From Panopea generosa (taxonomy: Eukaryota > Mollusca > Bivalvia > Adapedonta > Hiatellidae): 64,000 nt of DNA. The notes below the pieces were generated by a model that had not been told where the DNA came from, did no database searches, and worked only from the letters and a program-made list of their open reading frames with translations. Both the position numbers and the translations under genes were made by a program. Below, piece by piece: positions 22,125 to 53,262 of this stretch. How positions within the stretch are numbered: position 1 is the first letter of the stretch; every line of letters starts with the position of its first letter. The DNA lies in the NCBI GenBank assembly GCA_029582155.1, contig CM055902.1, positions 17,087,011 to 17,151,010 of the forward strand, written 5' to 3'.

Positions 22125-22437
22125 ATACTGCGGCGTGGTCTAGTGGTAGAGCATCCGCCTCGCATGCAGAAGGTCGTGGGTTCAATCCCCGGCCGGGTCA
22201 TACCAAAGACTTTAAAAATGGTACTAGAAGCTTCCTTGCTTGACGCAGAGCATTTAGAGGAGAGTTGTAGGTCTGGTCGGCACGGTGTCAGTTTAATGTG
22301 ACTGGGTGGGGGTCATACCATGTGTCTGCGGCATGATACTCCAGTGTGACAGCGCTTAGAATACTTTCTCAAGTAAACACTGTCGCGATATCAATGAAAA
22401 ATTGTTGAAAGCGACGCTAAACACCATACAACAACAA
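22125..22437 (+). mobile_element. tRNA-derived SINE family A, full length
   Basis: A tRNA-like head (A-box TGGTCTAGTGGTAGAGCA; B-box GGGTTCAATCCCC) is followed by a conserved body and a CAACAACAACC-type tail. A perfect 12-bp target duplication, CCATTCATCTCA, flanks it at 22113-22124 and 22438-22449, directly showing retrotransposition. The head does not fold as a clean tRNA (poor anticodon stem), so it is not called a tRNA gene. Confidence 0.92.
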
Positions 22438-22907: not shown

Positions 22908-22990
22908 ATGGACAAGTATGAAACTATACACAGACTAGGTAAAGGTGGTTGTGGAGCCGTATACCTTGTCAGGCACAGGGAAAATAGAAA
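22908..22990 (+). CDS. NEK kinase exon 1 (start, glycine loop)
   Basis: ATG at 22908 opens [20 protein letters not shown], the usual NEK start just before the glycine loop. The donor is AAA|GTAAGT. The exon ends in phase 2. An AG at 22885-22886 after a T-rich tract may be the acceptor of a 5' UTR intron. Confidence 0.95.
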
Positions 22991-25900
22991 GTAAGTTTAA
23001 CATGTTTTATTTTACATCAATTAAGAAACAATTTCTCTTTATTATGGTAAAACTAGGAATTTTGGATTTACAATGTATAACGATTTGTTCGAGGTTATAA
23101 CAGATTGTCCTTGTGGGATATTGAACCAATAGGGCATTTTTACAGAATTTTGGGAAGGCACTGCTTAAAAATTGGGGAAAATATGCTCATGGTTTCGAAC
23201 TATTCGGAAGAAAATGGCTTATTTTCAAACTTTTTGGAGACATTTGGGAATTATTTTGGTTAATTTTTTTTTTAAAAAAATAAATTTATTTTGCTTGGAT
23301 ATCAGTGTAAAGATGTGACCCAACACACACATGACCATTACTGGTAACAATGTTTCTGAGATGAAAAGGAAGATTGAGAATGGTTAATTGGGTCAAGGTC
23401 ACTGTTACTAAAAGTAGAAAAAAGGTTTGCTGCTCAGTAATTTTAAGTAACCTTTAAAGAGAGTATATCAGGAAAGCCTCCTATACATGCTTTACAAATT
23501 TAGAAATAAAATAATTATTAAAATGGATAAAAAGCATCTCATTATCGTTCAGACTCTTTCTAAAATAATTTTGACTACTTGTAAACCTGTTTACTGGATC
23601 AAATTGAAATAAAATTGATATCGTGTGACTCATTGGATACGTCGCAAAATATGTTGCCATTTTAAGCAGGAAATCTATTTTGGTCTTACCTAGGCGTGAA
23701 GCCCAAGTTGGGAAAGCCCTTTTCAATATATATATATATATGTTATTTTTTCATGTTTAAATAGATATCTTTTTAACAATACAGGGTCAGTGAGTATATG
23801 TGGGCACAGTATATTGTAAAAAATGTTTTTAGCCAATCTTAAAATGTTGAAAAATTCTGATAGATATTTGATTTAATGATTGGTGTGAAAATTTCACATT
23901 ATTGGTGATCGTATTAATGTATTAGCTGGGTGCCCGTATTATCATAGTAACTTTTACTACAAACATTGAGAAAAAATAGTAAAAAGATGTTTGCATTAAT
24001 TTCCACATTGTGATGCATAATTTTTTAAATTGAATGGAACGCCATCTCTGGTTGCTTATAAAGATGCATTTACCTCATGCTGATCTCACCTGTATAGATT
24101 GGTTATATAAGTTTATATTGTACACTCTTTCATAGATTGTATGCCTTGATTGGTTATATAAGTTTATATTGTACACTCTTTCATAGATCGTATGTCTTGA
24201 TTGGTTATATAAGTTTATATTGTACACTCTTTCATAGATTGTATGCCTTGATTGGTTATATAAGTTTATATTGTACACTCTTTCATAGATTGTATGCCTT
24301 GATTGGTTATACAAGGTTATATTGTACACTGTTTCACACCTGTATAGATTGGTTATATAAGTTTATATTGAACACTCTTTCATAGATTGTATGCCTTGAT
24401 TGGTTATATAAGTTTATATTGTACACTCTTTCATAGATTGTATGCCTTGATTGGTTATACAAGGTTATATTGTACACTGTTTCATAGATTGTATGCCATG
24501 ATTGGTTATACAAGGTTATATTGTACACTGTTTCACACCTGTATAGATTGGTTATACAAGTTTATATTGTACACTGTTTCTCACCTGTATAGATTGGTTA
24601 TACAAGTTTATATTGTACACTGTTTCACACCTGTGTAGATTGGTTATACAAGTTTATATTGTACACTGTTTCACACCTGTATAGATTGGTTATACAAGTT
24701 TATATTGTACACTGTTTCACACCTGTATAGATTGGTTATACAAGTTTATATTGTACACTGTTTCACACCTGTATAGATTGGTTATACAAGTTTATATTGT
24801 ACACTGTTTCACACCTGTCTAGATTGGTTATACAAGTTTATATTGTACACTGTTTCACACCTGTGTAGATTGGTTATACAAGTTTATATTGAACACTGTT
24901 TCACACCTGTGTAGATTGGTTATACAAGTTTATATTGAACACTGTTTCACACCTGTGTAGATTGGTTATACAAGTTTATATTGTACACTGTTTCACACCT
25001 GTGTAGATTGGTTATACAAGTTTATATTGTACACTGTTTCACACCTGTGTAGATTGGTTATACAAGTTTATATTGTACACTGTTTCACACCTGTGTAGAT
25101 TGGTTATACAAGTTTATATTGTACACTGTTTCACACCTGTGTAGATTGGTTATACAAGTTTATATTGAACAATGTTTCACACCTGTGTAGATTGGATTTA
25201 CAAGTTTATATTGTACACTGTTTCACACCTGTGTAGATTGGTTATACAAGTTTATATTGTACACTGTTTCACACCTGTATAGATTGGTTATACAAGTTTA
25301 TATTGTACACTGTTTCACACCTGTATAGATTGGTTATACAAGTTTATATTGTACACTGTTTCACACCTGTATAGATTGGTTATACAAGTTTATATTGTAC
25401 ACTGTTTCACACCTGTATAGATTGGTTATACAAGTTTATATTGAACACTGTTTCACACCTGTATAGATTGGTTATACAAGTTTATATTGTACACTGTTTC
25501 ACACCTGTATAGATTGGTTATACAAGTTTATATTGTACACTGTTTCACACCTGTATAGATTGGTTATACAAGTTTATATTGTACACTGTTTCACACCTGT
25601 ATAGATTGGTTATACAAGTTTATATTGTACACTGTTTCACACCTGTATAGATTGGTTATACAAGTTTATATTGTACACTGTTTCACACCTTTGTAGATTG
25701 GTTATACAAGTTTGTATTGTACACTGTTTCACACCTGTGTAGATTGGTTATACAAGTTTATATTGTACACTGTTTCACACCTGTGTAGATTGGTTATACA
25801 AGTTTATATTGAACAATGTTTCACACCTGTGTAGATTGGTTATACAAGTTTATATTGTACACTGTTTTATAGATTGTATGCCTTGAAGACAGTTGAGCTT

Positions 25901-28900
25901 GATGACAGTAAAAAGACGCGGACCAAGGATGCGGTACAGCGAGAAGCAAAGTAATAGTTTTAAATTTACTGGAATTAATTTCTGGTCAAATTTTGGCCCT
26001 TTTCCACAACAATGCTTTAATAAGTCCACCTGTTTCATAAAATGATTTTTTTTTAGATTTTTCGATAGAGTTTTTTTCAACACATGACAGATTATGTATG
26101 AAATATCCAGTTTTATTGGTGGAGAAAGACCTTGGAATGAATCTGAGTAAGAAACTGGTAAACTTAAGATTGGACTGGGCTCAAACCCATGACCTCGGCG
26201 GTGAGAACTAAGTGATTATTTGAAGACAGCGCCTCAGACCACTCGGCCATCAAATACTCCATCAGATATTTTAAAATAGTGTCTTAAGATACAGATTATT
26301 TAATCTTGATCTCCTTCAATGCTTGGTTTTAGAATATCGAGCATCGAAGATGATTGAGACAATTACCAGAGTCCTGCGCAAATAACACACTACCTCCGTC
26401 TTTTAACAGTCAGACTCCAGAAGTTTCTGACTCATTTGGTACATTCGTTCGTTTCGACACCGAGTATTCATTTTGTTGCCGACTCTACATCAATATAACA
26501 ATAAAACTTAATATTAAATTTAAATAGTAAAGTTTTACACAGCACACAATTGCACATTTGGAATAGATGTTATATGGAAGGATATTCAATTATCTATATC
26601 TCTTTTTCAAAGCAGCTTTGCTGCAGGTTTCTTTTTGTTGGTACAGACCGTAATCCATTCAAGTACACCAAAATTGCATGTTAAATGCGTTTGTTTTGCG
26701 TTTGAAATGCTTTATAGTTTTGTTTGCAGTTAAAAACGATACTAAAGGCATTTTAGTCTGTGTTTGCATTCGAATCCTTTACTGTGTATCGTTAACCATG
26801 TATCGTTTAGCATTTATCGTTTACACGGTGTGCTCACCAATCGCATCATCTCTGGTTGTCCAATTGTTCATCCATTACGAAATATTTAGTTGCAATTGAA
26901 TAAATAGTAAGAACTATATATTTAACGAAATCACCGGGTGTTATATGATATTATATTGATTAATTAAATTAAAGTGATATTGATTAAAATCTTTCTGAAA
27001 GATTGATAACTACGCCACCCTATTTAAGATATGGTCTACCATATAGGTTATGATTTGTAGCATGACAGCAGATTAATATGTTACAAAAAACTCAATCTTT
27101 GAAATTAAATACACACAGTAAGCACGTCATGTCAATTTCATTAGATTAACATGTTACGGTCACGTTATAATTATATGGACGCTCAAAGCAAGACTGGTTC
27201 ACACTAAAGTTAACATTATATGCCATGCCTTAATTTATATAGTGAATGCACAATCTTTATGTCTATATAACTCTGACACAATTTATTTCTGACCTCGTTC
27301 TAATGTGTGATGTCATCACACTGACAGTTTCTTGCATCATTTTACGTCGTGTTCTGTGTCACTAATGTAAATGAATGGTGGAGGGGGCTGGGGGAGGGGA
27401 GTCGGACGGCATTATAATAAAAAAATTATGCCTGGTTGGTGTTTTCATAAAAATAGATACTTTGAAGGGTAAAAGTTTTATGCCTTGTGGCAGGGCTTCT
27501 AAAATTGCTGGTACTTCCGTCTTTAGATCTTTTTTCTTCTCGAAATTTTATAAATTGTCTATAAAACCCGTTTGTTTGTCATGAGGTGTGCCAAATGGGG
27601 TCAAATTAGGCTAAACCTTTATTGATATTAGGGAAGCTACCAGAAAGGTCAATCGTAGTAGTAGTTGCACGCTTCTGGTATGTGAGCAGTGGGCCATATC
27701 AGATTGAAATGTGTTTGATCAGTAATTCTTTGATCTACATGTACAAGCTGTGTTACGACAAATAACCCCCACCCCCACAAAAGTGCATTAAGAGTAGTGA
27801 CCGTAAATAAAATGTAAAAAGCATTTGAAATTAATACCATCGTTAATTTAACTTTAATCCATTATTTTTATAAATTTCCTACAGAATCTGACAAGCGTTT
27901 AATTTTTTTAAAATAAATGACATAAACATGTCTGACACTTTTAAGGAGTTTTATGTACATTACACCGATAGAATTATTTTTACATCCTTACATCACGAAT
28001 TTCAAAGATACCAACACTTAGTGAAATAGCATGTGTCATAATAATGTTTGTTTCATTGGTGATGTCATGGGACATTGACACAAGGTGATTATTAAATGCA
28101 CAGCATGTTCTAAAAAAAGTGTGAAAACTTTTCCTAATTGTCAATCTTATAACAGAACAGCAACATAAATCGGTGTGTAGATCAGTTAATTGGGGGAGTT
28201 GTGTAAGCAGGCTATGCATCACCTGATTGTTTTATCACACTTTTACAAGCAAAGACACGATGCCCGAGGCAATGTTTTTCACGGATCATTCGGGATTGAA
28301 ACTTATAACAAAGAAATTAAATTAAAGTTACAGGTAAAGCCATTTATAGAATTTAAATGACTAAAAGAGCAATCATTTGGATTAATTATTTATTTCATTG
28401 TCAATATACCTATAATAATATTAGAGGATATCCAAATCTTCATTGCATATCCTAAAAATACATTTAATTTTTGTTGCATTTAACGTTTGCATTATCATTT
28501 GGTATCGTTCTTGGATTGTTGTCCTGTTGTGTGCATGTATCGGTTTGTGTATCGTTTTGTTTGCATTTTTTAATCCATTTGTATACCGTTTGAAACGTGT
28601 TTGATATTCGTTTCGTTTGCGTTTGTTTGGTGTACTAGAACAGTTTGCGGTCTGTAACAAGGTGTACATGAATTTTGATTACAGGATTCTGTCTCAGTTG
28701 AAACACCCCCATATTGTCTTGTGTCACAAGTCTTACTTTGATATTACAGGATTCTGTCTCAGTTGAAACACCCCCATATTGTCTTGTATCATGAGTCCTA
28801 CTTTGATGACAATATGGAGAACCTGAATATAATACAAGATTACTGTGACGGGGGAAATATGGATGACAAGGTGAAAGAAGCTGCTAGGGTAAGATGTGCT

Positions 28901-31900
28901 GTTGAACCTTTCTAATAACATTAACCCTTTACTTCACATAGACACCTTTGGACACCTCTAATATAGGTGCCTTTGGACACTTCTAATATAGACACCTTTG
29001 GACACCTCTAATATAGACGCCATTGGACACTTCTAATATAAACACCTTTGGACACCTCTAATATAGACGCCATTGGACACTTCTAATATAGACGCCTTTG
29101 GACACTTCCAATATAGAAGGCTTTTGAATTAGTGGGTGAATTATGTTTATTGTACTGACAGAGTGGAAAACAGTGCAGGAAGTGCTCAGATTGCTCGTTA
29201 CAGGCAATCTGAACTCTTCCTGCACTGTTTTCAAAGACCTTCTGTGATTGGTGCAATAAAACGTGTATCTATGGAGTAAATGGTTACACTTGGGATTATT
29301 TGTTAATAATAATGAAACATTGATGCAATAAAATCTTTCTAATTATAAATCTTCAATGGATGTCTTAGATTATTATCGCCGCTTTTCGGTGAAAATTGGG
29401 TGACAAATTTGAATTCACATGTATTATGCAGCATGGTCAGTGAAAAGTGCTGGATTGCTATATTTATCCATAGAATGTCTGTTAGATTTACAATAATTAT
29501 TATAAATTTTGTTGTCTTTAAAATGAATGAATGAATGAATGAATGAATGAATGAATGAATGAATGAATGAATGAATGAATGAATGAATGAATGAATGGGG
29601 TTTTACAGTGAACCAACACTCGATAGGTTATTCGATGCCAACAGGAAGGAAGATTCTAGGCTCACTCTACTTGTACAAAAATAACAAATTAACATACAGA
29701 TTGGTTTAAACATATTTATTCATTCAAATGTACATATATACACATAAGTTAAGGTATAAATATGGATTAGAACAGAAGACGAAATCTTATAAAGTTCTTC
29801 TCCATGACATATATATTGTGAACAGAATTTGCAGTTTATTAACAATTTGATTTATGCTTTTAGTACATGTATTACAAATATAGCATACCCTATTTACCTG
29901 ATGAATTGGGACACCCTATGTTTTGGGACACCCTTATTTTTCAGGAAAATAATTTTTTTTGATAATAAAAATTGGGACACATTACAATTTTTAAAAAAAT
30001 TCTCATCATTGGGACCTTTAAATTTTTATATTGTACATTTCTATTTTCTTTTTTCCATTAGTTCCACATGTATTGGGATGAAATTACTGTATTAACACTA
30101 TGTATCGGGACAGTAAAAAATAAATAAAATAATATGTGTTGGGACAGCAAAAAATTTAAATATTGTTGCTGTCCCAATGCATAGGGTAAATATGGAAGTT
30201 CAAAATATATTTTATAAAAATAAAACATGCAGATTAAAAAGAAGCATCAACAAACGAATATGCGGAATAAACCTAGAACCTTGATACCTGTAGAACTACA
30301 GAGTTTTAGCGAATTCTATTGTATTGTGTCTTTTAAACTGCAAAGTACAGTCGACTTTCTTGTTTTCAGAAAAGCAAACATTTTGAAGAGTCGCAAGTTA
30401 TGGAGGTATGTAAAAGTTTTGTTTGGACAATGGTGGAGGCGGTATTATTCTCTGAGACATCTAAAGGCACAAACTATTATGTTAAATATGTGAGACTTCA
30501 AGGTTGACTCAGACTCAAAAAATTGTTTGAGTTTCCTGATAGTTTGAGTTTACAATGTTTTCAGAGTAATACAAGAAAAGTCCATATTTTCAGGATAATT
30601 ATTAGTGCCCCTGCTGGTTTAATGGGAAACTTACGTCTAACTATTGTCTTAAACTTCTTTTAACTATTCAAGTGGTAAAACACACTGGTAGGGGACGTAG
30701 GTTAGATCCCCAGTCGGGTCATATCAAAGACTTGAAAAATGGTACTAGAAACGTTTTTGCATTTGGAGGACAGCTCTTGGTCTGGTTTGCCCTGTGTCTG
30801 CGGCATGATATTCTAGTATGGCAGCACTAAGAATACTGTCTCAAGTAGACACCGTTGCAATATCATGACTGAAAAAGGGTTTGTTTAAGTAAAGTTGAAC
30901 ACCATACAGTTTCTCTTCCATAAACTCAGCACAGACACCTAATATTCTCATACAGGGGCTAAGGATGTCTGCTATTATTTACCAGTGCTGGATACTTTTA
31001 TCTGACCTAAGTGTCAAGATTAAAATATACACTTGGATAGAATGAAACTAAAAAGGCTAGTCACAGAAGATAAATCGGTGTATATGCTAAGAAAAAAGTT
31101 TTATGTAGTATGTAGATTCTTATTCTAGGTTTGACTGATTAAGTAAGAATCTTAATAGGGCCTCAGCTCCAATAAAAAAACAGACGAAACTTGTTCTCTT
31201 GATATTGGAGAGACTGCCAGAAAACATTGAGATATCCGAATCAATATTTATTTTCATCGCCTGATAATTGTTGTATGTCAATTGTACTTTTGTTTTCATG
31301 CACGGTCCATGCAGTAGAATTGCACTGTGGTGATAAATGCTAATATCCGGGTCCTTCGTTGAAGCTGCACCCAATGAGCTTAGTGGTTAGAGCGTCTTAC
31401 TGTCAATTCAGGGGTCGTGAGGACGAATCCCCGCCAGCCATAATCTCTGTGATGTTTGATATATGACATTGCGTCTCATTATCATTCGTCTCTCACCACT
31501 GATACAAGTGGGAATGTTATCAGTTACTTGCGGAGATGGGTGTGCTCGAGTACTGGTTAACCTTCCAGGATCCCAGGAAACAGTGGTAAGGTTAACTGAT
31601 CGTCTGCTAGCCTTCGATGGTTTATAAATGACATTAAATATTCAATCAATTTGAAATACTCGCCAGTGTGAGATATAAGTTAAGGCTGATTGAATCTTTC
31701 AAATGATAAAGTACAATTTACATTCAATCACCCAATTCAATGGCACGATGTTTTGCAGCTTTCTATCAGTCATTAAAACTGATACCTTTGCCTTTGACTG
31801 GTAATTAATGTCGCATCTTAAATAAACTGTGAAAATAGCACACGTAGATTTTGACACCACATGGAAAAGCACACAATGCTATATCAGCAATAACTATATC

Positions 31901-34900
31901 GAGACGAACATTTAATTTAAGGTGTGAAATGATCAATCAGTAACTCAAATGTGATTGAGATATCCAAAAATATTGACAGACAATATTGAGCAAAAAGGAA
32001 TATATTTACATACACAAAGAAGGGTTAAAGTTGGGGATGATGGCAAAATGTATCAACACTACCGGAATATCAACTCAAGCAATATTGGGATAACGAGTTT
32101 CAACTGTATTGTTATGTCGACCTAATGACTTAATACTAGTGAAAGGTTCTTATAATCTGCCATCTTATGTGACTATAATAATGTCAGATTTTAAATAAGT
32201 CATGAAACAATTCATATGTTTTGGTTTTGTTTTACTTTCAGTGGTTTATTCAGATTATTATGGCAGTACAATATATACACAGTAAAAAAGTTTTACACAG
32301 GTATGTAGATTCTATATATATATATACACAGTAAAAATGTTTTTAAGTAAACAATGTACACACAATAAAGTTTTCCAATTTCCCTATATTAAAAACAATG
32401 TATACTGAATGCCATTAAAAAAAATTGAATGTTGAATATGTTTTTTATCGGTTCATATATATAAATTAATTTGTTAAATTTGTGTGTAAAAGAGATGAAA
32501 TTTGGTATAAATTGAAAACCAAGGTAAGAAAGTTTTGTCTTGGTTTAACATTCATGTTATATTTATACTTGTTACATTACCCATATTTGCAATTTTTAAA
32601 GGCTTTGTAAAAAAGTAGAGCATATGGTACAGTGGTATGGAGCATCAAACCCATGATTGTTGGGTCGTGGGCTCGATCCTCTGCCACAACTATGCAGGGT
32701 CCTTAAAAGGAAGAAACATTATCTTAAAAATAACATATGCTTAGTACTGGTCCTACACAGGAATACTTCTGAGCATGATGTGTCTAAGTTGTTAAAACTT
32801 GTTTCAGTCAATGAAAAAAAACAAAAAAAACACCCTCCCCTTTTTCAGAAAAATTTGGATGATAATCTAGTAATTAATTTATAATGGCATAAGGTAAGGT
32901 ATTTACGGGTATCCACCTAAGTTTAATGCATTTTTATGAAAATTTGAACAATTATGATGGAGGGGAGAGAGAATGTCTCCCCGGGGCATTTGTTTGGAAC
33001 AATTTGCAGGTTCAATATACAGTGTGCACATAGCAAAAAAGTTGCGCAATACATATAGATTGAATAAACAATGTATACACAGTAAAACTATTCTACACAT
33101 GTATGTAGGTTCCACATTAAATGTGAGAGATGTAGTGTTCATGTAGTTGTTAATGTGAGGAAATCCGAGGACATGAAACCGGTATGATTCAGACTCCTAT
33201 CCACCATTAGTTGTGGGAATTCGTGATAATTTCGTTCAAAATATTCTGTCTCATTACATGTTTGTTAAAAGAGTTATTTCACAACTTAATTATATACTGT
33301 ATTTGATTACAGGGATTTGAAGGCAGAAAATGTGTTCCTGACAAAGAAAAATGTGGTGAAAATAGGTCAGTTTGTACTTGTTTCTGTGCCTTTTAAATCG
33401 GTCCTTTCATTATGTACTATAATTTCATAATTTTGAAGTTCTGAAAACTTTCACACACACAAAAAATACAGTTGGCATAAAAACAAACAATTGTTTGGGA
33501 ATTGCAGAGTTACAAGAGTTTTTATGTTGGTCTGGTCTCCAAACAATTCTGAGCTGAGTGAAATTTTACAACTGTGTTTATATAACTGTGAAAACATACA
33601 AATAAAGTTGAAACAACGAGCTATTTGAGAAAAAGGAAAAGGTTATATATCAGGTAAAGTTTAATATCAGTTTGCAAAATTATACACTACCATGTATGTT
33701 ACTTTTAATGTGAATTTCATTGATGTTCAATGTGCGATTCAGGGCTTGAAATTTCTTATAAAACCTACTCGTCCTCCCTTTCCAGCATTTGTTTATTGAA
33801 TGCTTAAATCAAAGAAATTTTAAGGTTACCAAGTTTCTTAAATCTTATTCATCCTGACCAAAGGTTCACTCATCATGACAAGTGGATGAGTGAAATTTTT
33901 CAGCCCTGCGATAGTTTATACATTAATTATTTTTATAGCATACATGTATTGGAGGATATATACCAGGTTATCATTGATATTTAAGATTATTGTGTCGCCC
34001 AACAACTCTAGATACTGTTATTCTGTTAAACATTTGCTGCATATTCTAGTTTACATGTACCCATTTGTTAATATTTCCAGGTGACTTTGGAATTTCTAAA
34101 GTATTGGAGAACACTATAGATGTTGCGCAGACCATTGTTGGAACACCCAGCTACCTGAGTCCCGAACTTTGTCAAGACATTCCATACTCATCCAAGTCTG
34201 ATATATGGGCAAGTTCACAAAGATTTTCATATTCATTTAGTCTGTTTTTAGATTGTAAACACATTTGGAATCAGAAAACTTGGTTTGACATTATATTGAT
34301 TATAAAACAGTCAAGACAAAAGTATTGATATTAAAACAGACACAAGTGTTACATTAAACCAAGATAGAACACTTTCTGATTCACTGTCAGTTCTCCTGGA
34401 TAATACATACCGACACATAGGTCAGAGGTAAGAGTCTTTTATTTCCTGATTAATTTGACCTTACACAGGCTGTCAATCAGACAAGTCTATAATCCAATCA
34501 GCAATCGATAAAGGGTCCAACATTGCCATTTTCCTTAGACAAGCTGATGGTCGCTAAGTCAACACTTAATTGTATTTACTTGGACAAACGCTACATGGCC
34601 ACTGGGCAATGGTTTTTCTTGTGTCTATTGCTGATTTCTTGTTAGTTACATTTCTTCGCACATGAACAAAAAAAAATAATAATAAATTAAAATCTGTTAC
34701 ATTGTCTTTCTAAGATCATGAAAATAAATAAATTTTGAAGAGACTCCAATAATAGATGTACGCTATATCTATAATCTGTGGTTGATCTACTTGTAAGCCA
34801 TTCCTATTAGACCAATCCTTGAATTATCAGTTTTGGAACATATGTAACAATGCTGTACATGTGTCAGTTCATTTCTGATTTGATGTGTTGAACATTGAAG

Positions 34901-37900
34901 CAAATAAATAATATTTAGCGTCATTTTATGCTATCAATGGCTTAAAGACAACCAGTTGCCTAACCACTCTTTTCTGGGATCCCGGGAGTTGAACCAGTAC
35001 TCAAGGAATCTCATCTCTGCAAGTAGCTGATAATTTTCCCACTTGATACAGCATACTAGTATATCGATCATGCCAGGTGGGGATTTGAACTCATGACCTC
35101 TGGATTGATAAACGCATTATCAACTCGAGGCAGCAAATATGAAAGTAGAATACTCTTGTCTATAATTCAGCTTATTGCTTGACTCTACAACAGTACATTT
35201 TTTGTAGGCTGTTGGGTGTCTGCTTTATGAGATGTGTGCCCTCAAATCTCCATTCGATGCTCAAAATCTCATCAGTCTGTTTTTCAAAATCATCAAATGT
35301 GAATTTGAGGTAAGTGATTATGATGGCAGTGTGTAAATATTAGTTATGGTTTTGTTATTTAACGCAATTGTAATTGTGAATTCATATTTACATCAGTTAA
35401 CAGTGACACTTTCATCTGCTTGCCAAATGGTCTATTATGCAATCTACATTGGTGTATATTAAAATTGACTTGAGTTAAGTTTTTTCGATTCTTTATAGTT
35501 TAAATTGACTGTTTTGTTCTTTGGACTCAAATAAGACACAATTGAGTACCAGCATCTGCCATTAACTTATACTTTCTTATGCAAATTATTCATTTTGTGA
35601 TGCATTATACTTTGCTAGCTATATTAATTTTCCCTCACTACATGTACTTTCAAGATTTTATGTACAAATTTAGGAGTAATTGACCATTCTTTTTTCGCCT
35701 TCACATTTTGATCCGGGTCCTCCTCGGTCGAGTGATCTAAGGCGCCCTCTCAAGATCACTTACCTCTCACCGCTAGGGTTGTAGGTTCGAGTCCCGCTCG
35801 CTCCAAAAACATTATGTGAGAAAGTTTGCCAGCTACTCCCGGAAGGATGTTGGTTCTACTCAGTCTGAGGTCTTCCTCACCAGTAAAACAAGATATGCCA
35901 TATATAACCTGAAATGTTTTGAAAATGGTGTAAAACCCATTAAAAAAAAACCTATTTTGATCAGCTTGATGTTACAGTTAAGTTCCTTGATTGTATTCCG
36001 TCAGTTGTCAATATGATGAAGATGCAAGTTTGGTGATACTTAACTTCTTAATGAAAAACACTCTGGCTCAATTATGGTTCCCCTACAATAGCATATTCTG
36101 ATGCTATACATGTGTATAATATGATAAAATAGATGCAACTTTGCTGTATTACAGAATATGAAATTTTTCCTAAGGTTTGAGAACTGGTGAATATGTTAGG
36201 GATGAACATGAACTTTTTAATGTTAAATTGTGACCAATCCCCAGTAGCTATTGTCAAATACCCGGCTATGTATGATACAGTTGATTGATTCTATATTTCA
36301 GCCAATCCCCAGTACCTATTGTCAAATACCTGGATATGTATGATACAGTTGATTGATTCTATATTTCAGCCAATCCCCAGTACCTATTGTCAAATACCCG
36401 GCTATGTATGATACAGTTGATTGATTCTATATTTCAGCCAATCCCCAGTACCTATTGTCAAATACCCGGCTATGTATGATACAGTTGATTGATTCTATAT
36501 TTCAGCCAATCCCCAGTACCTATTGTCAAATACCCGGCTATGAATGATACAGTTGATTGATTCTATATTTCAGCCAATCCCCAGTACCTATTGTCAAATA
36601 CCCAGCTATGTATGATACAGTTGATTGATTCTATATTTCATCCAATCCCCAGTAGCTATTGTCAAATATCCGGCTATGTATGATACAGTTGATTGATTCT
36701 ATATTTCATCCAATCCCCAGTAGCTATTGTCAAATATCCGGCTATGTATGATACAGTTGATTGATTCTATATTTCAGCCAATCCCCAGTAGCTATTGTCA
36801 AATATCCGGCTATGTATGATACAGTTGATTGATTCTATATTTCAGCCAATCCCCAGTAGCTATTGTCAAATACCCGGCTATGTATGATACAGTTGATTGA
36901 TTCTATATTTCAGCCAATCCCCAGTACCTATTGTCAAATACCCAGCTATGTATGATACAGGTGATTGATTCTATATTTCAGCCAATCCCCAGTACCTATA
37001 GTACAGAACTTCACGAAATCATACAGAGTATTCTAGTCAAAAGTCCAGATGATAGACCAAGGTGAGTGGCTTTGAACAACTTTTGATTGTGATAATTATT
37101 TTCTATATTGATCACATTGTTACACTGATGTTAATTGCTTCTGAAGTTTGGTTGTATGAGGCAACAAATTGTGTATTTGATAAAATTTGTTGGAACACTG
37201 CAGTTTTGAAGGTATCAAGGTTCTAGGTTCATCCGGTTGATTTTGTTAATTTTTATGCTCCCTGAAGGGTTAGCATATAACTGTTGCTTTGTCCATCCGT
37301 CCATCTGTCTCCAAAGATACTGAAGGGAATCTAGTGACTCTTAGAACACGGAAAGAGAGCAATATAATGGATATGCATTTTTTTTGGTTATATTTGCTTG
37401 TTTCCAATAGAATCTGCTTCTGACTGCTTTGTTTTCGAAAAGTGTTTTCTTCTTACAGTCATTACTATTATCTTAATAGCAATCTGGTTGGGTTAGTTTG
37501 AGAAACAATGCTTTTTACACAATCAGACTTCGCATCATAGGCAAGTGTATCGTTTCATTGAAGTGTTATGCTGAGGTAGTTGGCGACTTGCAGAGATAAG
37601 GTGTAAACCTCCATGCAAACAGACAAACATTGTTGAAGTGGGTGAACCTTGTGAATAATTGTTCCTAATACGTGATCATGTGTTTCGTAAGAATAACTAT
37701 AAAACTGTGGCAAATGAATATTTAATAAGATTTATTTCATTTCCAACAGTGCAAGTGCAATTTTAAATACAGCGCTAGTAAAGAAACACCTCGCCAAATT
37801 TATACAAGAAAAAGAAAATCTCCTGCAACAGAAGAGCAGCAAGGATGATTCTATTACATCTCCGAATACACAAACAACCCCCACAGCAAGGTCAAAGTCT

Positions 37901-40900
37901 ACCCCGAAAAGGTATTGTCTTATTATTCATAAAATGTCATTCAGATAAAGCGTAGAGGACAGTTATACATTGTACACTCTTGTAATATTTTAACACAGCA
38001 AGATGCTGTCTGAAGATTATTTTCTTAACACCTCTGTCGTCCCTGGTTCAGGTCTGTTATTTCCGGTTTTGTTGGTGGATAAAGATTAAGAATGAATCTG
38101 TGGTAGCATTGTCCTACAGAATGGCACTGGGAAATTTGAGTGGTGAAAATATTTAATTTGAAAATAAGAGGGTTGAAAATCAGAAATTAACTAGCATGCA
38201 ACTTATTTCGTACTTCTTTGAATTTATTACGAACCTGATGAAGGCTGTATAGACGAAATGCATCGTTCAGAATAAAAACTTTTTCAATGAGTTTGCCTTC
38301 TTGTTTTTAATTTTTAATTGATGCTCCTTTGTTAAAATTTTACAAAGTTGAACCATGTTAAATACACACTGATCTAAATGTACTTGTAAGTATCATTTAT
38401 ACAGAATATAAAAAAATTTTAAAAGGCATCCTAACCTTCATTGATTCTGGGCTGCATTTGTTAACATGTTCAAATCCAATTTTCTTGACACTCGCTCAAC
38501 TTCATGTTGGCTCACTTAACATGGTAAAGTTAGGGTAGCGGGCTTCTGTTTCATTAACATTTAACTTAAATACTTAAAAACCTGACTTAATTTTGACTGG
38601 TTATGTATCTACTATATAATCAATATCAGTGAAACTATGTACAGTTTTACTGGAACCAGGCTAAAAGCATGATCACTTGAGTATATACTGGTGAAGCAGG
38701 AACCAGGCAACAAATGTTTTTCTGTTTAAAGATACTGAACCTAGCCCTGGTGCTATGTTTTGTAAAATAATTGTTTTATTGTTGATTGTTCTACTGAAGT
38801 GTGAGAGAGTCTGATGTATCAAGTCCAGCATTGAAGAGAAACAAGTTGAGGATCTCCACACCAATGATTCAAAAGTCACCCAAGCATGACATTTCTAGCA
38901 GCAGATCTCCACATCAGCAGGACAGTGGTCTAGGAGTTAGCTCAGATACAGGTGGGTAAATATTGCGTAGAGTTATAATTAGTTATAATGATTACGAAAC
39001 AAGCAATGAAAATTTATAGAAATAGTAGATACATTTTCCAACAAGTTAAGCCAGGCCAGGATTGCTCAGTTTGTCATTCATTCCGAGGTTGTGAGTTTGA
39101 ATCCCAGACTAGCCAGTCTGTGGTCATGAACTGTTCTTTAGGGGGCCAGTGGTTAGCAGAGATAATGTGAGTCTAGAATGGATAAACCTCTTAACAATTC
39201 CTTGGAACTATGATAAGGAGCGCTAAGAGTCATTGAATAACTAAATACTGTTAAAAAATGAATAAATATCTATACAAATAAACAAGTTAATACAAGCCAT
39301 ATCAACACAAGTTTTGAAATGTTGTTAAAACTACATACATGAAAAGATCTCTAATATTTACACCAGAAGCAAGCTCAAATAAGTTTCTGACTCTCCATCA
39401 TTATATTTGTCTTCTACAGTCAGGTTATTCCGTGGTATTTCTTTGCAATTTATGCACTTTGAGCGTCATGGAAACAAAAATGGCAACTCTGAAATCTGTT
39501 ATCCTATCATTTTTTTTGTAGTTTGTAATACAATTAATATGTAATTTTTGTTACAAAATATTGATTGCTTTAATTTTATTAACCAATTTATTTATTTAAT
39601 ATACACAGCAGTCTCGATATAGCATGGTCTGATATAATGCGGCTTTTGTTTGACTCTCAAATTTAAAATTGATATTTTCAACCAGATGCATGATGAAATC
39701 GCTTAAATAACAATTGATTGAAAAATCTTAACTAAGATGCAATGTTTTTGCGAGCTTGTTACATTTTTTCAAGCTGTGACCACGTCTTTATTTGTACGTC
39801 AATTACACCTAATTAATACAGATTGCCATATTGCTGATAACTTCTTATTGTTTTACACAACATTGCTTTTGATTGATTTTCGCTGACAAAAAATGGTCTG
39901 TGTTGTTTATCACACATTAATCGTCATGTTTTTTTTTTTGCAAAAGCCAATTATTTACTTCAACCAAATATAGTATGGCCAATGGGGACTATGTATAGAA
40001 AATGTGTAAAGATTGCCGACGCAGAATTTTTTAATTTTTTTTATAACAATGGTATTTTTGTACAAATTATATAAAGGCTCCTGGGAATGCATTAATCAAA
40101 CCATTTGGCTAATACAGAAGAAACTTTATAGGGACTAGAAATTAAACATATAACTGTTATGAAAGTCACTAAACTGTCATTGAAAACGATATTACCTTTC
40201 AGGCTTGTAAAAATGTAATCTATGCCTGGATGTGTACTTCAGAAGAATGCAAGAGACAGATTTAAATGAGCTTTTGTTCATTTAATTGTTTAAACACACT
40301 CCTATAATGAACTTGAAAATTACTGTATTGGTGGTAAATACTATCTAATTCTATTTTATCTGTTAGATTTAGTGAAAAATGAGAGGTTGGATGTGCCAAA
40401 ACCTGACCCAGATGTATCGTCAGATTACTCCGATGATTTTGACGAGTCGTCACACTCGGAGGAGGAAGAAGGTGGGTTAAAAGAATTAAAATGAGTTTTC
40501 ATATGCTTGTTTCAAAAGCAGACCCGCGGTATATGGCTTATCAACTTGGATGTGAACTAGATGTGAATAAAGGTACTCCGACTTATTTTAAGCTTTATGT
40601 GAGAAGTTTGTCAGCTACTTTCAGAAGGACAGTAGTTCTACTCAGATTTATTCTAAGGTCTTCCTCCACCATTAAAGCTGAATATGCCATATATAACCTG
40701 AAATGAGTTGAAAATGTTGTTAAACCCCATTCATTTTTTTTAAACAGTGATTGGATCATTAAAAAATGCAATTAAGCTACCAGTTGTAATAACTGTTTGA
40801 AATTTCATCCAAGGCACCATTCCTGTTTAAAAAAATATTCATACGGCTTCCAGAAAAAGTATTTGGATGGGCATTATGTCAGTAAACTTGCAAATCTTTG

Positions 40901-43900
40901 TCAAAGTCAATTGTTAAAAGTCTAATGTATAATTTTCTTTATCTTATGTACTTAAACCAGGACTTGAAATTTGTTATCAAATCTACTTGTCCTCCCTTCC
41001 CAAATATATTTCTAAAATGCTTCAGTTCAAATGAATATTAAGGTTAGTTTCTTAATTCTTACTTGCCCTGGACAAATTCTTACTTGCCCTGGACAAATGC
41101 TTACTTGCCCTGGACAAATGCTTTCTTGTCATGATGAGTGGACTAGAACTATTTCCCATCCCTGTTAAACTTTTACTGACTGAATGTTTGTTTAATGACA
41201 CATTGCAGATGACATTAAGGAAGAGATAGAGGGTGGGGAGGAAGACATCGAGTCAGATATAGAAGATGTCAGTGTACAGGAGAGTTCAGATGTCCCCGAT
41301 ACTGTCGACTACGCTGATGACTTTGAGGAGTATGACTCTGGTGAGGTAAGGAGGCATGCAGAAGGTTGTGGGTTCGATCCTCAGCCATGTCAAATGAAAG
41401 AATGGTACTAGGCGCTTACTTGCTTGGTGCTCAGCATTTAGAGGATCATTCTTAGTCTGGTTGTCTCAATGACTGGATGTCATACCCCGTGTGTGACGGA
41501 ATACTCGAGTGTGGAAATCTCAGAATATGTGTACTGTCTCAAGCCGGGGATTTTTTAGCCTATTAAACAACGGCAGAAATTAGGTGGCTTCCCAATTAAA
41601 AAACCTTTTTTTTTTTCCCAATTGAGGCCAAAAAAAACCCCAAAATGTTAATCCAAATTTCCCCTCCATCACACTATTTCCCAATCTTGAAGGCTTGGGC
41701 CTCTTTCCAATAAAAGTCTCTGCTATTATATTATAGTGTCTTCTGATGAGCTGTAAGCTCAACAGTGAATGCCATTGAAATAATCGAATAAAAGATGAAT
41801 ATAAATGGAAATAGGTTATTTTATTGTTAAACATGTTTGTTGTTGTTTTTACATTGACGGCAAAAATCTACAGATTTTTTTTTATCAAATCTACTGTTAT
41901 TTATCATATCTGCTGATCTGAAATCCTAGATTCTGCAAATCCATCACATGTATGATTTAGTAATGTAAATTTCATTGATTTCTTCATTTATTTGTAAAGA
42001 GTTTCACTAAATTTTAAACCTAATTTATTTAATTTATTATTGTATGCACAACATTAATCAATCTTTGCGTGCACAAAAGTGTCAACATTTCTTGTTTGTA
42101 AATTAAACTATTTAAATTCTTTGTATACGCCATCTCGGCATGATTGTCATCTTCGTGTTTCTATAGGACCTAGATCGGATGGTATCGCAGGCTCGTGAAG
42201 CTCAGGATATCGAGGCTGTGGATGATTGGTTCGCAGACAGCATGTCCGAGATGCACTTCAGACAAACCATGATACTGCAGGAGTAAGTAATAAACAGGAG
42301 GATAAATGATATTGCGGGAGTCAGTAATAAAGGGGAGGGTGAATGATATTGCGGGAGTCGGTAATAAAGCGGAGGGTAAATGATAATGCAGGAGTAAGTA
42401 ATAAAGGGGAGGGTGAATGATATTGCGGGAGTAAGTTATAAACAGAAGGGTGAATGATATTGCGGGAGTAGTTATAAACAGGAGGGTGAATGGTATTGCG
42501 GGAGTAAGTAATAAAGGAGAGGGTGAATGATATTAGGGGAGTAAGTAATAAACAGAAGGGTGAATGATATTGCGGGAGTAAGTTATAAACAGGAGGGTGA
42601 ATGATATTGCGGGAGTAAGTAATAAACTGGAGGGTAAATGATATTGCAGGAGTAAGTATTAAAGGGGAGGGTGAATGATATTGCAGGTGTAACTAATAAA
42701 CAGGAGGGTAAATGATATTGCAGGAGTGAGTAATAAAGGGGAGGGTAAATGATACTGCAGGAGTAAGTAATAAAGGGGAGGGTGAATGATACTGCAGGAG
42801 TAAGTAATAAACAGAAGGGTGAATGATATTGCGGGAGTAAGTTATAAACAGGAGGGTGAATGATATTGCGGGAGTAAGTAATAAAGGGGAGGGTGAATGA
42901 TATTGCGGGAGTAAGTAATAAACAGGAGGGTGAATGATATTGCGGGAGTAAGTTATAAACAGAAGGGTAAATGATATTGCGGGAGTAAGGAATAAAGGGG
43001 AGGGTGAATGATATTGCGGAAGTAAGTAATAAAGGGGAGGGTGAATGATACTGCAGGAGTAAGTAATAAAGGGGAGGGTGAATGATATTGCGGGAGTAAG
43101 TTATAAACAGGAGGGTGAATGATATTGCGGGAATAAGTAATAAAGGGGAGGGTGAATGATATTGCGGGAGTAAGTAATAAACAGGAGGGTGAATGATATT
43201 GCAGGAGTAAGTAATAAAGGAGAGGGTGAATGATATTGCAGGAGTAAGTAATAATCAGGAAGGTGAATGATATTGCGAGAGTAAGTTATAAACAGGAGGG
43301 TAAATGATATTGCAGGAGTAAGTAATAAAGGGGAGGGTGAATGATGTTGCGGGAGTAAGTAATAAAGGGGAGGGTGAATGATATTGCAGGAGTAAGTAAT
43401 AAAGGGAAGGGTTAATGATATTGCAGGGTTAATGATATTGCAGGAGTAAGTAATAAAGGGGAGGGTTAATGATATTGCGGGAGTAAGTTATAAAGGGGAG
43501 GGTGAATGATATTGCGGGAGTAAGTAATAAAGGGGAGGGTTAATGATATTGCAGGTGTAAGTAATAAAGGGAGGGTGAATGATATTGCAGGAGTAAGTAA
43601 TAAAGGGAAAGGTGAATGATATTGCAGGAGTAAGTAATAAAGGGGATGGTGAGTGATATTGCAGGAGTAAGTTATAAAGGGGAGGGTGAATGATATTGCG
43701 GGAGTAAGTAATAAAGGGGAAGGGGAATGATATTGCGGGAGTAAGTAATAAACAGGAGGGTGAATGATATTGCTGGAGTAAGTTATAAACAGGAGGGTGA
43801 ATGATATTGCGGGAGTAAGTAATAAAGGAGAGGGTGAATGATATCAGGGGAGTAAGTTATAAACAGGAAAGTGAATGATATTGCGAGAGTAAGTAATAAA

Positions 43901-46900
43901 CAGGAGGGTGAATGATGTTGCTGGAGTAAGTAATAAAGGGGAGGGTGAATGATATTGCAGAAGTAAGTAATAAAGGGGAGGGTGAATGATATTGCAGGGT
44001 TAATGATATTGCAGGAGTAAGTAATTAAGGGAAGGGTTAATGATATTGCAGGGTTAATGATATTGCAGGAGTAAGTAATAAAGGGGAGGGTTAATGATAT
44101 TGCAGAATTAAGTTATAAAGGGGAGGGTGAATGATATTGCAGGAGTAAGTAATAAAGGGGAGGGTGAATGATATTACAGGAGTAAGTAATAAAGGGAAGG
44201 GTTAATGATATTGCAGGGTATATGGTATTGCAGGGGTAAGTAATAAAGGAGAGGGTGAATGATATTAGGGGAGTAAGTAATAAACAGGAAAGTGAATGAT
44301 ATTGCGAGAGTAAATAATAAACAGGAGGGTGAATGATGTTGCTGGAGTAAGTAATAAAGGGGAGGGTGAATGATATTGCAGAAGTAAGTAATAAAGGGGA
44401 GGGTGAATGATATTGCAGGGTTAATGATATTGCAGGAGTAAGTAATTAAGGGAAGGGTTAATGATATTGCAGGGTTAATGATATTGCAGGAGTAAGTAAT
44501 AAAGGGGAGGGTTAATGATATTGCAGGAGTAAGTTATAAAGGGGAGGGTGAATGATATTGCAGGAGTAAGTAATAAAGGGGAGGGTAAATGATATTGCAG
44601 GAGTAAGTAATAAAGGGAAGGGTTAATGATATTGCAGGGTTAATGATATTGCAGGGGTAAGTAATAAAGGGGAGGGTGAATGATATTGCAGGAGTAAGTA
44701 ATAAAGGGGAGGGTTAATGATATTGCATGAGTAAGTTATAAAGGGGAGGGTGAATGGTATTGCGGGAGTAAGTAATAAAGGGGAGGGTGAATGATATTGC
44801 AGGAGTAAGTAATAAAGGGGAGGGTAAATGATATTGCAGGAGTAAGTTATAAAGGGGAGGGTGAATAATATTGCAGGAGTAAGTTATAAAGGGGAGGGTG
44901 AATGATATTGCAGAAGTAAGTTATAAAGGGGAGGGTGAATGATATTGCAGGAGTAAGTTATAAAGGGGAGGTTGAATGATATTGCAGGAGTAAGTTATAA
45001 AGGGGAGGGTGAATGATATTGCAGGAGTAAGTAATAAAGGTGAGGGTGAATACACAATTTTCATCACATTACATCACTACCTGGTTATACATGTTTTATT
45101 GGCGGAGAAAGTCGCCAGAGATGTCGAGTAGAACTACCATCCTTCCCCAAGTAAACCACCTCAGCAATGAGAGGTAAGCAATCTTGAAATAGCACCTTCT
45201 TCCACTCGATCAAGGAGAACCTGAATAAATATAAGTTTAAGAGGGGAACTAGAAGTCATTAGAAGTCTTAGGCATTAAATTGAAAAGTTTCTTAATTCAA
45301 CACATACTTACTGAATCCAAGATAATCAACTGCAACTTTGAGATCATATTTAAAATCATACACAAATTAAAAAGATTAAGACATGCACAATTTCTGCTTT
45401 TATCTGTACTTGATAAAAGTAATGAACTAATTTCAGCAAATGTTTAGCAATGTCTAGTGTCATAAACATATTTATGGGCTTGTAACGGACAACAGGATTA
45501 ATGTAATTTTTGCTCACAGGGACGAAGTCCAAAGAGAACTATTGCCATGACCCCGACATCGGCGTTGTCGTTGGCGTCCTCTGTAGACACCCAGGATAAA
45601 CTTTTGCGTTTAAGTTTTAGATATCTATGCAACCGCTCATTGGATGTGAATGAAACTTTGCATGTGTGTTCACCATCATCAATGGAACAAACACAGACAA
45701 GAACCATAACTCTGGATTGCATTTTGGCACAGTTATGGCCCTTTTTGGACTTAGACACCCAGGGGCGAGCTTTGTTGTCTTCTGACAACTCTTGTTATAT
45801 CCTCAGATACAAAGTTTATTGGGGTTAGAAAGGAGTCGCGTTTGGCGGTCCTTCTGTTGACAATTTTTGTGATCGCTATTTCTCACCAACCTTTGGCTGC
45901 AATTCAATGAAACCTCACAAGGGTGACTGGTACCAAGCCTAGCTGTGTATATTGTTGGCATGTTGTGCACAAATACTATTTCAATGAGTTATGACATTTT
46001 GAATTTTCAGATTTTTTTTTTGTGGTCGCTATTTCTCGGCTACCATTGGCTGGAATTCAATGATGCTTCACAAAAGTGATTGGTGACTAATTGGTTCAGG
46101 GTGCCATCTTGGGGTATTCATCACCTTCAGTGATTTTTCTAGTTCCCATAAATTATCTAGTGATGATGTAAATTTGCTTGTGTAGATATTAATAGTTCGT
46201 TTAGAGCATAGCTAGTCATATAGCAACATTTAATTCTTGTGTTCATTTTAAACATTAAAAATTTACTTTAAGCAATGCATATATTTACTACAGGCAGTGC
46301 AAGCAGGCATTGGGAGGACGTGAGTTGAAGGAGGTGGGACAACTTGTCAGTGATGGTACCCTTACTGAAGATGACCTCAGGTTGGTTGAGCTCACATTCT
46401 TACTGTTTTTAAATGAGTATACATTTGTAAATTCAATTTTCACTTGTTAAACATGCTATTATTTATCAAAGTATTGTTACCAGACGAAAACAACCAAAAC
46501 AATTATTAAAATGCCTGGTATTTTTTGAAATATCAGAGTGGTGCCCAAACTTTTATTAAAAATATTAAATCATTAACAGTCTGCCAGTCTACCACGTTTA
46601 TTCTGGTACCTCAGTTCCTGCTCCGACAGTCCTGTGCAGTTCTGGTACCACAGTTTCGTAGTTGATGTCCACAGTTATGTACAGTTCTGTAACACTTCTG
46701 ATGAGATAGTCCTGCTATAATAAAGTTTAAATACCACAGTTCATACAAGAAAAGTAGTTTTCTATATTAGGTTACATTTACAGCTGCCAGAATATTGGTG
46801 ACATTTTCAGATATATGTAACAGATGTTGTTTTACAGATATGTGTATATGATTTGTTTTCGGGGATTTTTTTTATAATTATCCAAACAACTTCGTTTTCA

Positions 46901-48479: not shown

Positions 48480-48682
48480 CTGTGTGTGATAATCATAAAA
48501 TGATGACATGCGGACATGCTTCAGTAGTTGTGTGTATTTGGAAACGGAAATTTAGTGAAATGAAGATAAAGTGAAGATCCTGACGAAGCAGCAAGGTAAC
48601 ATGTATGCATGCCAACAGTTCAAAAGTTCATTTAATTTATTTGTTATTATGGTAAATTTTTTGTTAATTTTAAGTCATTTAA

Positions 48683-48894
48683 CCCTTTACTCCATAGATA
48701 TGCGTTTTCCTGCACCAATCACAGAAGGCCTTTGAAAACAGTGCAGGAAGAGTTCAGATTGCTCGTTACGAGCAATCTGAACACTTCCTGCACTGTTTTC
48801 CACTCTGTCAGTTGATCTAAACATAATTCACCCATTGGTGAATAAATGCTTTCAATATAAGAGGTGTCCAAAGGCGTCAGTATGAAGTAAAGGG
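48683..48894 (+). mobile_element. piggyBac-type MITE, copy 2
   Basis: TTAA on both sides (48679-48682 and 48895-48898), termini CCCTTTACTCCAT and AGTAAAGGG. The central hairpin is CAGTGCAGGAAGAGTTCAGA...TCTGAACACTTCCTGCACTG. TTAA target sites are diagnostic of piggyBac-type insertion. Confidence 0.9.
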
Positions 48895-49499
48895 TTAAGT
48901 ATTACAGATCAGCTTACCAATGTGGAACTCCTCACTGATAATACATGCAATTATAAAAAACAATAGAAGGGTAATATTATAAATATGTGTTAAGCGTTGT
49001 GTCACATGAGCTGGTGTGCGGTTATAGGCACTTGTTACCAGTAATGACAACATGGCAATATTGTTGTTTTATTGACTTACTAATCATACTTAGTGTTCAT
49101 TCCAGACTGGTGCCATTGGCTAGTGAACATTTTATGTCCATGCCAAGCCGTCCGTAAAAAATAAACTGTTTGCCGTGCTCCTACCTACTCACTCAAAATT
49201 ACAGCTACCCAAACTTTTTTATTGACTTTCCAAGCATTTAGTTGTTTTTTTTCATGATTTCTGTCTATTTTTCTTTAAAATGACTGTACAAAATCAAAAT
49301 TTGTTAAAAAAAAAATTTTAGCTACCAACCAACCCACATGAAAAATACTATGTCGGAGCACAGCAAACAAAAGCTTTTCCATGATGGAATGAACACTGTT
49401 TTAATGTTTTAATACCAACTAATAATATTTTAAATAAAATCTTGTTTTAGCATTTAAAATGCACTGATAAATAAGTATAGGTTATTTGTTTTTGATAGT

Positions 49500-50300: not shown

Positions 50301-50819
50301 TTATGCAGTTATATTGCCTTTGTAAAATAACAAATCTAGAAAATGTCTAAAATATAGGTGAGGTCTTTTCAAGAGTGGAGGAATATTTCAGAACTCCTGG
50401 TACATGTATGTGTGTAACAAAAACAATCATTATATATGAATATGTTGCAAAAAGCAATTGAAATATATGCATATAATTTGAATAGACTGTAAATCGATTT
50501 TAACAAAGTTTGTATGAGCCTTGAAGCCAAACTGAGTTGTAAACCATTTAGTATGAAAACAACAATAATTGTCTCACATAGAACAAAAAAATATATATAG
50601 ATTTCAAGTTAAACTAAACTAAGTTAATAAGGGTTTACAGTTTTGTATATTTTCCAAACCGTCCATGTATTTATTAATGAGATTCAGGTACATTGCACCT
50701 TGTATATTTCTGTATTATATCAATGTGTTGTTATATTTATGATAATTTTATAATATGATCGGTTTTAATTGGTTTTAAATGTTATACCGTTGTCTAGAGG
50801 TACAGTTAACCCATTACTC

Positions 50820-51002
50820 CATAGATAGGCGTTTTCCCACACCAATCACAGAAGGCCTTTGAAAACAGTGCAGGAAGAGTTCAGATTGCACAGTTTTCCA
50901 CTCTGTCAGTTAATATAAACATAATTCACCCATTGATGATACATGGTGAATTAATGCTTGCAGTATTAGAGGTGTCCAAAGGCGTCTATGTGGAGTAAAG
51001 GG
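50820..51002 (+). mobile_element. piggyBac-type MITE, copy 3 (half hairpin lost)
   Basis: TTAA flanks at 50816-50819 and 51003-51006. It is the same family as 48683-48894, but part of the central hairpin (the second arm) is deleted, leaving 'cagattgcacagttttcc'. Confidence 0.9.
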
Positions 51003-51006
51003 TTAA

Positions 51007-52188: not shown

Positions 52189-53262
52189 TTAACCGTGTTT
52201 ATGCCAATCAGAATATTGGTTGATTGCCATAAGATCCAATCTTACTACATATACAATCAAAGGGAAGTAATAAGTTTCTATGTAATATCCTTGATGACCA
52301 AACTCCTTCTTCACTTTGCACACCGACGAACCTTCACCCTGTTCTTCAGCGATATATGGTTCTTGTTCCCACTTATCACTTAACTGGTGTTTTCCTTTTA
52401 TGCCCACATTCCTCATTTAAACTATCTCCTGGCTTGATCTGTGTCCCTGACCTTTATGTCATATCTCTCTTTGTTCCTTCTTGCTTACAGTTCTGCTTCT
52501 TGTAAAGCTGTTTTGTATGCGAACTGTAACCTTTTCCTCAAGCCCTCAACATACTTAGAGGTAGTCATTACTTCCTTGACTGTTGGTTCAATACCTAGAA
52601 AAGCATCAACAGCCATTCTTGGATGCCTTCCAAATGATGCCTTCCAAACAATGGGGTAAAATAGAATGCTGTCATGTTTGGTGTAATTGTATGCATTAAC
52701 TACTTTGGGGACATACCTTTTCCATTTGCTCTTCTTGGATTCATCTAAAGCTCCCAGCATATCTAGCAAAGTCTGGTTGAACCGTACAACCATACCATTT
52801 CCCAGCGTATGATAAGGAGTAGTCCGAGTGTTAGCTATCAAGCACAGCTCCTTAATTACCTGAGAGCCAAAGTTTCCGTCTTGGTCACTGTGTATTCTGG
52901 ATGGAAATCCCCATTGAACGACTAAGTTCTCGAAAAGAATTTTAGCTGTGGTCCTTGCCGTTTGAATCTTTGTCGAGTACACCTGAGCATATCTGGTGAT
53001 ATGGTCTGTGTAGGTAAGTACATTTTCTATGCCTCCTTTGGACGGCTGCACCGGTAACAGATCTATACATACAACTTTTGTCAGATATGTTGATGTCATG
53101 CTGACCAATGGGGAAGCTCTTGATTCCTTTGTCTTTCTGCCTATGCAGCGATCACAGTTCTGTACCCATCTTGCTATGTCATTGTCCATATTGGACCAGA
53201 AGAAACGCTCCTTTACTAAACATTTATCACTGTCATGCCAATAGAACTCATTTTTGTCAAAT
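52189..53262 (-). pseudogene. Ty3/gypsy integrase, inactive
   Basis: Reading down from 53262: a zinc-binding part (KERFFWSNMDNDIARWV, then CDRCIGRK), then the catalytic core with VVCIDLLP (first Asp), TYTDHITRYAQVY, IHSDQDGNFGSQVIKELC (second Asp) and GNGMVVRFNQTLLDML. The usual GNGxVERFN glutamate is Val here, so the catalytic triad is broken. After a frame break, 52189-52416 carries a C-terminal segment, VGIKGKHQLSDKWEQEPYIA, typical of these integrases. Integrases insert retroelement DNA; this one cannot be active. No reverse transcriptase or LTR is seen nearby. Confidence 0.9.

Follow-up and report, generated by a model that had tools for sequence, protein, structure and literature searches.

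Tandem copies of five exon-intron boundaries in a NIMA-related kinase gene of the clam Panopea generosa

How does an exon edge, together with its splice site, come to be copied into the adjoining intron, in places dozens of times over, within a gene whose reading frame stays intact? The question is raised by a NIMA-related kinase gene in a window of 64,000 nucleotides from the Panopea generosa genome (GenBank assembly GCA_029582155.1, contig CM055902.1, positions 17,087,011 to 17,151,010 of the forward strand); the window is the whole stretch of DNA that was analysed, and all positions below are counted from its first letter. Five exon edges of this gene are duplicated, and we consider it likely that they represent what have been termed mirages in amphioxus, that is, short tandem duplications that spanned an exon edge and were amplified into the intron, with the exon-proximal copy working as the splice site and the remaining copies being decoys.

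Second copies of five exon edges in one gene

The gene is an intact NIMA-related kinase gene. Its 16 exons, joined across positions 22908-48419, form an unbroken open frame of 1,596 bp (531 amino acids), and its introns are GT-AG with the exception of the exon-7 donor, which reads GC rather than GT (position 34209). The protein matches the Pfam Pkinase domain (2e-65), its top solved structure is NEK1, followed by NEK7 and NEK2, and its kinase domain is of the NEK type that characterizes NIMA-related kinases. Protein matches are labelled Nek4-like and the vertebrate ones among them NIMA-related kinase 12, while the nearest named relatives (Mactra, Dreissena, Mya, and Mercenaria) show 71-74% identity in the alignment, which points to a heterodont bivalve as the host. 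When aligned with ten relatives, the protein of the window displays no insertion at any of the five affected exon edges.

Each of the 30 internal edges of the gene, with flanks of at most 60 bp, served as a query against the window in a search with the basic local alignment search tool (BLAST; E<=0.01). Second copies that cross the edge were found at five of them, namely the acceptors of exons 2, 3, and 9 and the donors of exons 5 and 14, and no such copy was detected by this search at the other 25. Both types of splice site are therefore affected (three acceptors, two donors), and the five junctions are exactly those named in an earlier, sequence-only reading of this DNA. Every one of the 92 edge-crossing copies lies in the adjoining intron and on the same strand: 7 at exon 2, 1 at exon 3, 2 at exon 5, 11 at exon 9, and 71 at exon 14. 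The copied unit holds about 14 exonic bases at exon 2, 58 at exon 3, 33 at exon 5, 18 at exon 9, and 14-16 at exon 14, a range close to the 14-56 given in that reading. Three of the edges carry long arrays, which take up 5.3 of the 23.9 kb of intron in the gene (62% of intron 1, 45% of intron 8, and 69% of intron 14) and are the only three arrays in the gene for which Tandem Repeats Finder (TRF) reports more than 10 copies of a unit of at least 30 bp. Array units are mutually divergent, with mean pairwise differences of 3-11%.

The array at the exon-14 donor contains 78 units including the true one, against an original estimate of about 75, and 68 of the 77 intervals between neighbouring units measure 37 bp; another six are only 17 bp long and carry no donor. 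GT is kept in 70 of the 78 units and GTAAGT in 63, and 62 copies of GTAAGT lie past the true donor within the array, compared to 18 on that strand across the remainder of the window. The two units adjoining the true donor read GTCAGT and GTCGGT, which perhaps relieves the true site from nearby decoys. The true unit differs from the decoy consensus at 6 of 37 positions, while decoys differ from one another by 11% on average. Additionally, TRF identifies blocks of 421 bp repeated three times inside the array, a sign that fits block-wise, ongoing turnover. Five downstream donors, drawn from perfect-match units, were translated, and in all five cases the protein ended after 477 residues.

At the exon-9 acceptor, TRF reports 11.3 copies of a 68-bp unit in exact phase, in agreement with the 11 units of the sequence-only reading. 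Over 23 bases, eight of the ten decoy acceptors match the true site without a difference; AG has become AT in the other two, and each of the eight intact decoys, if chosen, would stop the protein at 239 residues. The exon-2 acceptor is preceded by 37 units, which together with the true one match the estimate of about 38. Only seven of these, 51 bp in length, include the acceptor together with 14 bases of the exon (24099-24302 and 24349-24501); the other 30 are 46 bp in length and lack exonic sequence. The purely intronic unit has thus been amplified more than the edge-spanning unit, and both unit types can be read from the intron sequence at the left border of the array. The earlier claim that every copied unit spans its splice site is accordingly wrong for the bulk of this array.

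The single 65-bp duplication proposed at the exon-3 acceptor was confirmed; it consists of 7 intronic and 58 exonic bases, and its two copies are identical at 61 of 65 positions. The residues Y and E, encoded by the downstream copy, are C and K in the upstream one, and among ten relatives the first of these residues is Y in nine and the second is E or D in all ten. Choice of the upstream acceptor would shift the frame and stop the protein after 80 residues. Because its residues match those of the relatives and the upstream choice would break the frame, the downstream copy fits the role of the working site. For the exon-5 donor, where several diverged echoes had been suggested, edge-crossing echoes are indeed present, and their number is two; the better one shows 82% identity over 50 bp (E 1.3e-9), and this appears to be what is left of an earlier duplication.

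Near the exon-3 donor, an array at 28938-29124 was considered as a further edge array and rejected, as it sits inside a palindromic element resembling a miniature inverted-repeat transposable element (MITE). Copies of this MITE-like element occupy 28921-29286, 48680-48898, and 50807-51006, the first of them with an internal 25/50-bp minisatellite.

Across the affected edges, 24 of 24 translated decoy choices led to an early stop (1/1 at exon 3, 8/8 at exon 9, 10/10 at exon 2, and 5/5 at exon 14), and at every affected edge the frame is kept by the site that yields the shortest exon.

Positions of the kinase gene, its affected exons, and the copies of their edges within the window
Feature	Positions	Strand	Basis or content
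NIMA-related kinase gene	22908..48419	+	16 coding exons, start to stop codon, 531 amino acids
Exon-2 acceptor array, intron 1	24087..25872	+	TRF, BLAST, and unit census
Exon 2 (true acceptor at left edge)	25873..25950	+	gene model and protein alignment
Upstream copy of exon-3 acceptor	28678..28742	+	holds 58 exonic bases
Exon 3 (downstream acceptor copy)	28750..28888	+	gene model
Exon 5 (true donor at right edge)	32242..32300	+	gene model
Two diverged echoes of exon-5 donor region	33018..33117	+	71% over 76 columns; 82% over 50 bp
Exon-9 acceptor array, intron 8	36234..36981	+	68-bp unit; ten decoy acceptors
Exon 9 (true acceptor at left edge)	36982..37061	+	gene model
Exon 14 (true donor at right edge)	42167..42282	+	gene model
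Exon-14 donor array	42269..45051	+	78 units including the true one

Placement of the duplications and explanations for it

Whether five edges exceed what random placement would give depends on the unit that is counted. Sampling 2,540 positions along the gene gave 593 (23%) with a second copy nearby, and at a cut-off of 8 bases this per-base test passed only four of the 30 edges, the exon-3 unit having 7 intronic bases. Because arrays grow from one seed, the fair unit is the locus, and counting loci models such arrays better. A list of 16 duplication loci was compiled from TRF rows, self-comparison, and a position scan, with each array collapsed to one unit (unit length was judged by eye for two loci, near 30550 and 47250). 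Five of the 16 loci fall on exon edges, compared to 0.63 expected (P(>=5) ~2e-4). When exon and intron orders were shuffled 20,000 times, five edge loci were reached in 1 trial and four in 41; of 25,511 circular shifts, 11 reached five edge loci, nine of them being displacements of at most 8 bp from the true position. A narrower list of five strong loci gives P(>=4 on edges) of 7e-5, and a list of seven direct-repeat loci from self-BLAST, five of them on edges, gives P ~2e-5 (0 of 20,000 shuffles), although this last list is incomplete, having missed short TRF arrays such as 41054-41128 and the AATG repeat at 29522-29597. The original claim that edges recur beyond random placement is thus borne out by loci and not by bases. 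Taken together, these counts, which were made within the window, suggest preferred seeding at splice junctions for this gene.

We propose that a short local tandem duplication would first arise across an exon-intron boundary, and that slippage or unequal exchange would then multiply the copies away from the exon, which is constrained, and into the intron; the exon side would be held by selection, while copies on the intron side would be free to multiply. Exon definition favours the pairing of sites that yields the shortest exon. The exon-proximal copy, which gives the shortest exon, would be expected to stay the working splice site, and mis-spliced messages would presumably be degraded by nonsense-mediated decay. 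Junctions would be the preferred seeding places in this gene, and candidate causes of such a bias are breaks or slippage where composition, chromatin, or transcription state changes at exon edges; R-loops or spliceosome-linked breaks may likewise cause seeding. The sequence-only reading had offered the alternative that selection tolerates copies that re-create a working site, which would fit the arrays at exons 9 and 14, where the site sequence is mostly kept, and would not fit the bulk of the exon-2 array. Plain tolerance would give edges at most the rate of intron interiors; should the edge excess prove robust, it would therefore point to biased seeding.

Several observations weigh against edge-seeded mirages. 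The choice of splice site at each edge is deduced from the DNA sequence, and the evidence is confined to a single gene. The bulk of the exon-2 units no longer span the exon edge, edges are not enriched when bases are counted (5/30, or 17%, versus 23%), and the P value from the 16-locus list is ten times weaker than that from the seven-locus list. Moreover, the placement tests are post hoc, performed on one gene in a window chosen for its pattern. Ordinary intronic minisatellites in a repeat-rich genome could also have touched the edges by coincidence, with no preference for junctions: as 23% of sampled positions are repeated, base coverage predicts five of 30 edges, 11 of the 16 loci lie off edges, and the one gene was picked for its pattern. 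We nevertheless find coincidence rather unlikely, given that the count by loci on edges was matched by only one shuffle in 20,000 and that every array in the gene exceeding 10 copies with units of at least 30 bp, three in all, is an edge array.

The arrays might instead be functional, with their copy number tuning kinase expression or alternative splicing through unproductive splicing. The decoy signals are strong (the 62 GTAAGT past the true exon-14 donor and the eight of ten exon-9 acceptors identical over 23 bases), use of a decoy would be predicted to stop the protein, and a human boundary repeat in CBS, described below, is reported to be linked to enzyme activity. However, intact signals are equally expected of young arrays, the bulk of the exon-2 array lacks a copy of the site, and the GTCAGT and GTCGGT beside the true exon-14 donor argue, if anything, for relief from decoys; a function of this kind is improbable. 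An assembly artefact, in which the arrays or their lengths derive from mis-assembled repeats or from two haplotypes, is more doubtful still: the exon-3 pair, with 61 of 65 bases identical, could by itself mimic joined haplotypes, whereas units elsewhere are mutually different (mean pairwise 3-11%), unit types are mixed, and the duplications occupy five places in an intact gene. The copy number of the arrays is less certain than their existence. Finally, the window does contain transposon fragments and MITE-like copies, yet we give hardly any credence to an insertion by a mobile or introner-like element as the source of the copies, as every unit matches its own exon edge, 92 of 92 copies lie in the adjoining intron, and the sole array that a MITE-like element contains does not lie on an edge.

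Other elements of the window

Two further arrays lie outside the kinase gene. On the minus strand, nine units of 228 bp (61632-63673) each present an acceptor-like TTTTTAT[T/C]AG with an open stretch behind it. In the last unit alone this stretch continues into a longer frame, which ends at a donor-like GTAAGA site at 61589. This geometry is that of a further acceptor array with a putative exon of a gene or transposon; no homologous protein was found for this exon among 11 candidates (none with E<=0.001). The second array (3702-5593) has 30 units of 63 bp and is open on the plus strand through 672 codons, as expected from a unit length divisible by 3; the open frames listed gave it no gene context. 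Dispersed, related stretches at 22162-22430, 30790-30908, and 41354-41461 resemble, by eye, short interspersed nuclear elements derived from transfer RNA. The minus strand additionally carries a fragment of a retrotransposon integrase at 52488-53261 (Integrase_H2C2, with rve below the cut-off) and a fragment of a DDE_1 transposase at 55938-56318.

Comparison with known boundary repeats

The sequence-only reading saw in these structures an unusual route of intron growth and decoy-site formation; boundary-spanning minisatellites have already been published for amphioxus. In the parts of the reports consulted here, minisatellite-like duplications of intron-exon boundaries in amphioxus globin genes, found at both 5' and 3' boundaries, are named mirages, and the same structures are noted as having been reported earlier in Adh3 (PMC3087553). 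Regular splicing is described there as undisturbed, the repeats as unstable in length and in somatic tissue, and their mechanism as unclear, and mirages are proposed to be a general cephalochordate phenomenon (PMC3087553). Similar arrays are described in the lancelet PGBD5 gene, with troponin C cited as a further case (PMC3902484). The clam gene shares with the amphioxus mirages so described (Adh3, BflGb6, BflGb9, troponin C, and PGBD5) the tandem units that span a boundary, their occurrence at donors as well as acceptors, and the retention of AG or GT in many, though not all, of the repeats. The exon-proximal copy is the genuine one in amphioxus according to these accounts, and the intact frame suggests the same for the clam gene. 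Amphioxus mirages are further described as evolving in concert within a cluster, except at the cluster boundaries.

Partial resemblances are found in other systems, again as far as the consulted sections of the papers go. The human CBS gene has a 31-bp variable number of tandem repeats (VNTR), c.1444_1467+7(16_21), that spans the boundary of exon 13 and intron 13 (PMC2630376, PMC1395315). Its 16-21 units, like those of the clam arrays, cross from exon to intron, but they affect one edge of one gene, and the VNTR is known to be polymorphic. A potato RdRp gene gained an intron through tandem duplication across an intron-exon boundary (PMC4974935). As at exon 3 of the clam gene, the 3' end of an intron was duplicated along with the 5' end of the next exon; in potato the duplication made a new intron, and what the clam sequence shows is the duplication. 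Dual-specific splice sites in genes built of tandem repeats, such as polyubiquitin UBC (PMC10809524), likewise repeat splice sites in a tandem array. There, the intron is embedded in the repeat and is a multiple of its unit; in the clam gene, the arrays hold a single kind of site apiece and fill no more than a fraction of their introns (62%, 45%, and 69%). Within the molluscs, an abalone TSSK1-like gene has an intronic 27-bp minisatellite, which the consulted part of that report does not state to span a boundary (PMC6905558). No boundary-spanning array from a mollusc was found in the open-access papers searched, in part with mollusc or bivalve terms, and the clam gene adds, as far as the literature search shows, a case from another phylum to a structure known from amphioxus.

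Boundary-spanning arrays are treated, in the sections of the amphioxus papers seen, as a feature of cephalochordates, and a mollusc gene with five of them generalizes the question and makes it testable: do exon edges seed tandem duplication, and do introns grow in that way? We tentatively raise the broader possibility that some animal genomes, lancelets and a mollusc among them, have mutational hotspots for short tandem duplication at their splice junctions, and that a sizeable share of intron growth begins at exon edges. If so, introns would be stocked with perfect decoys that the spliceosome must ignore. Intron 14, with 62 GTAAGT past the true site, is also a natural test of how a splice site is chosen among near-identical neighbours. 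Compared to the amphioxus mirages, the clam case is known from DNA sequence alone and differs in its bivalve host, in the involvement of five edges of one gene, and in scale, its largest array reaching 78 units and 2.8 kb versus the 3 and 6 units described for two BflGb6 haplotypes.
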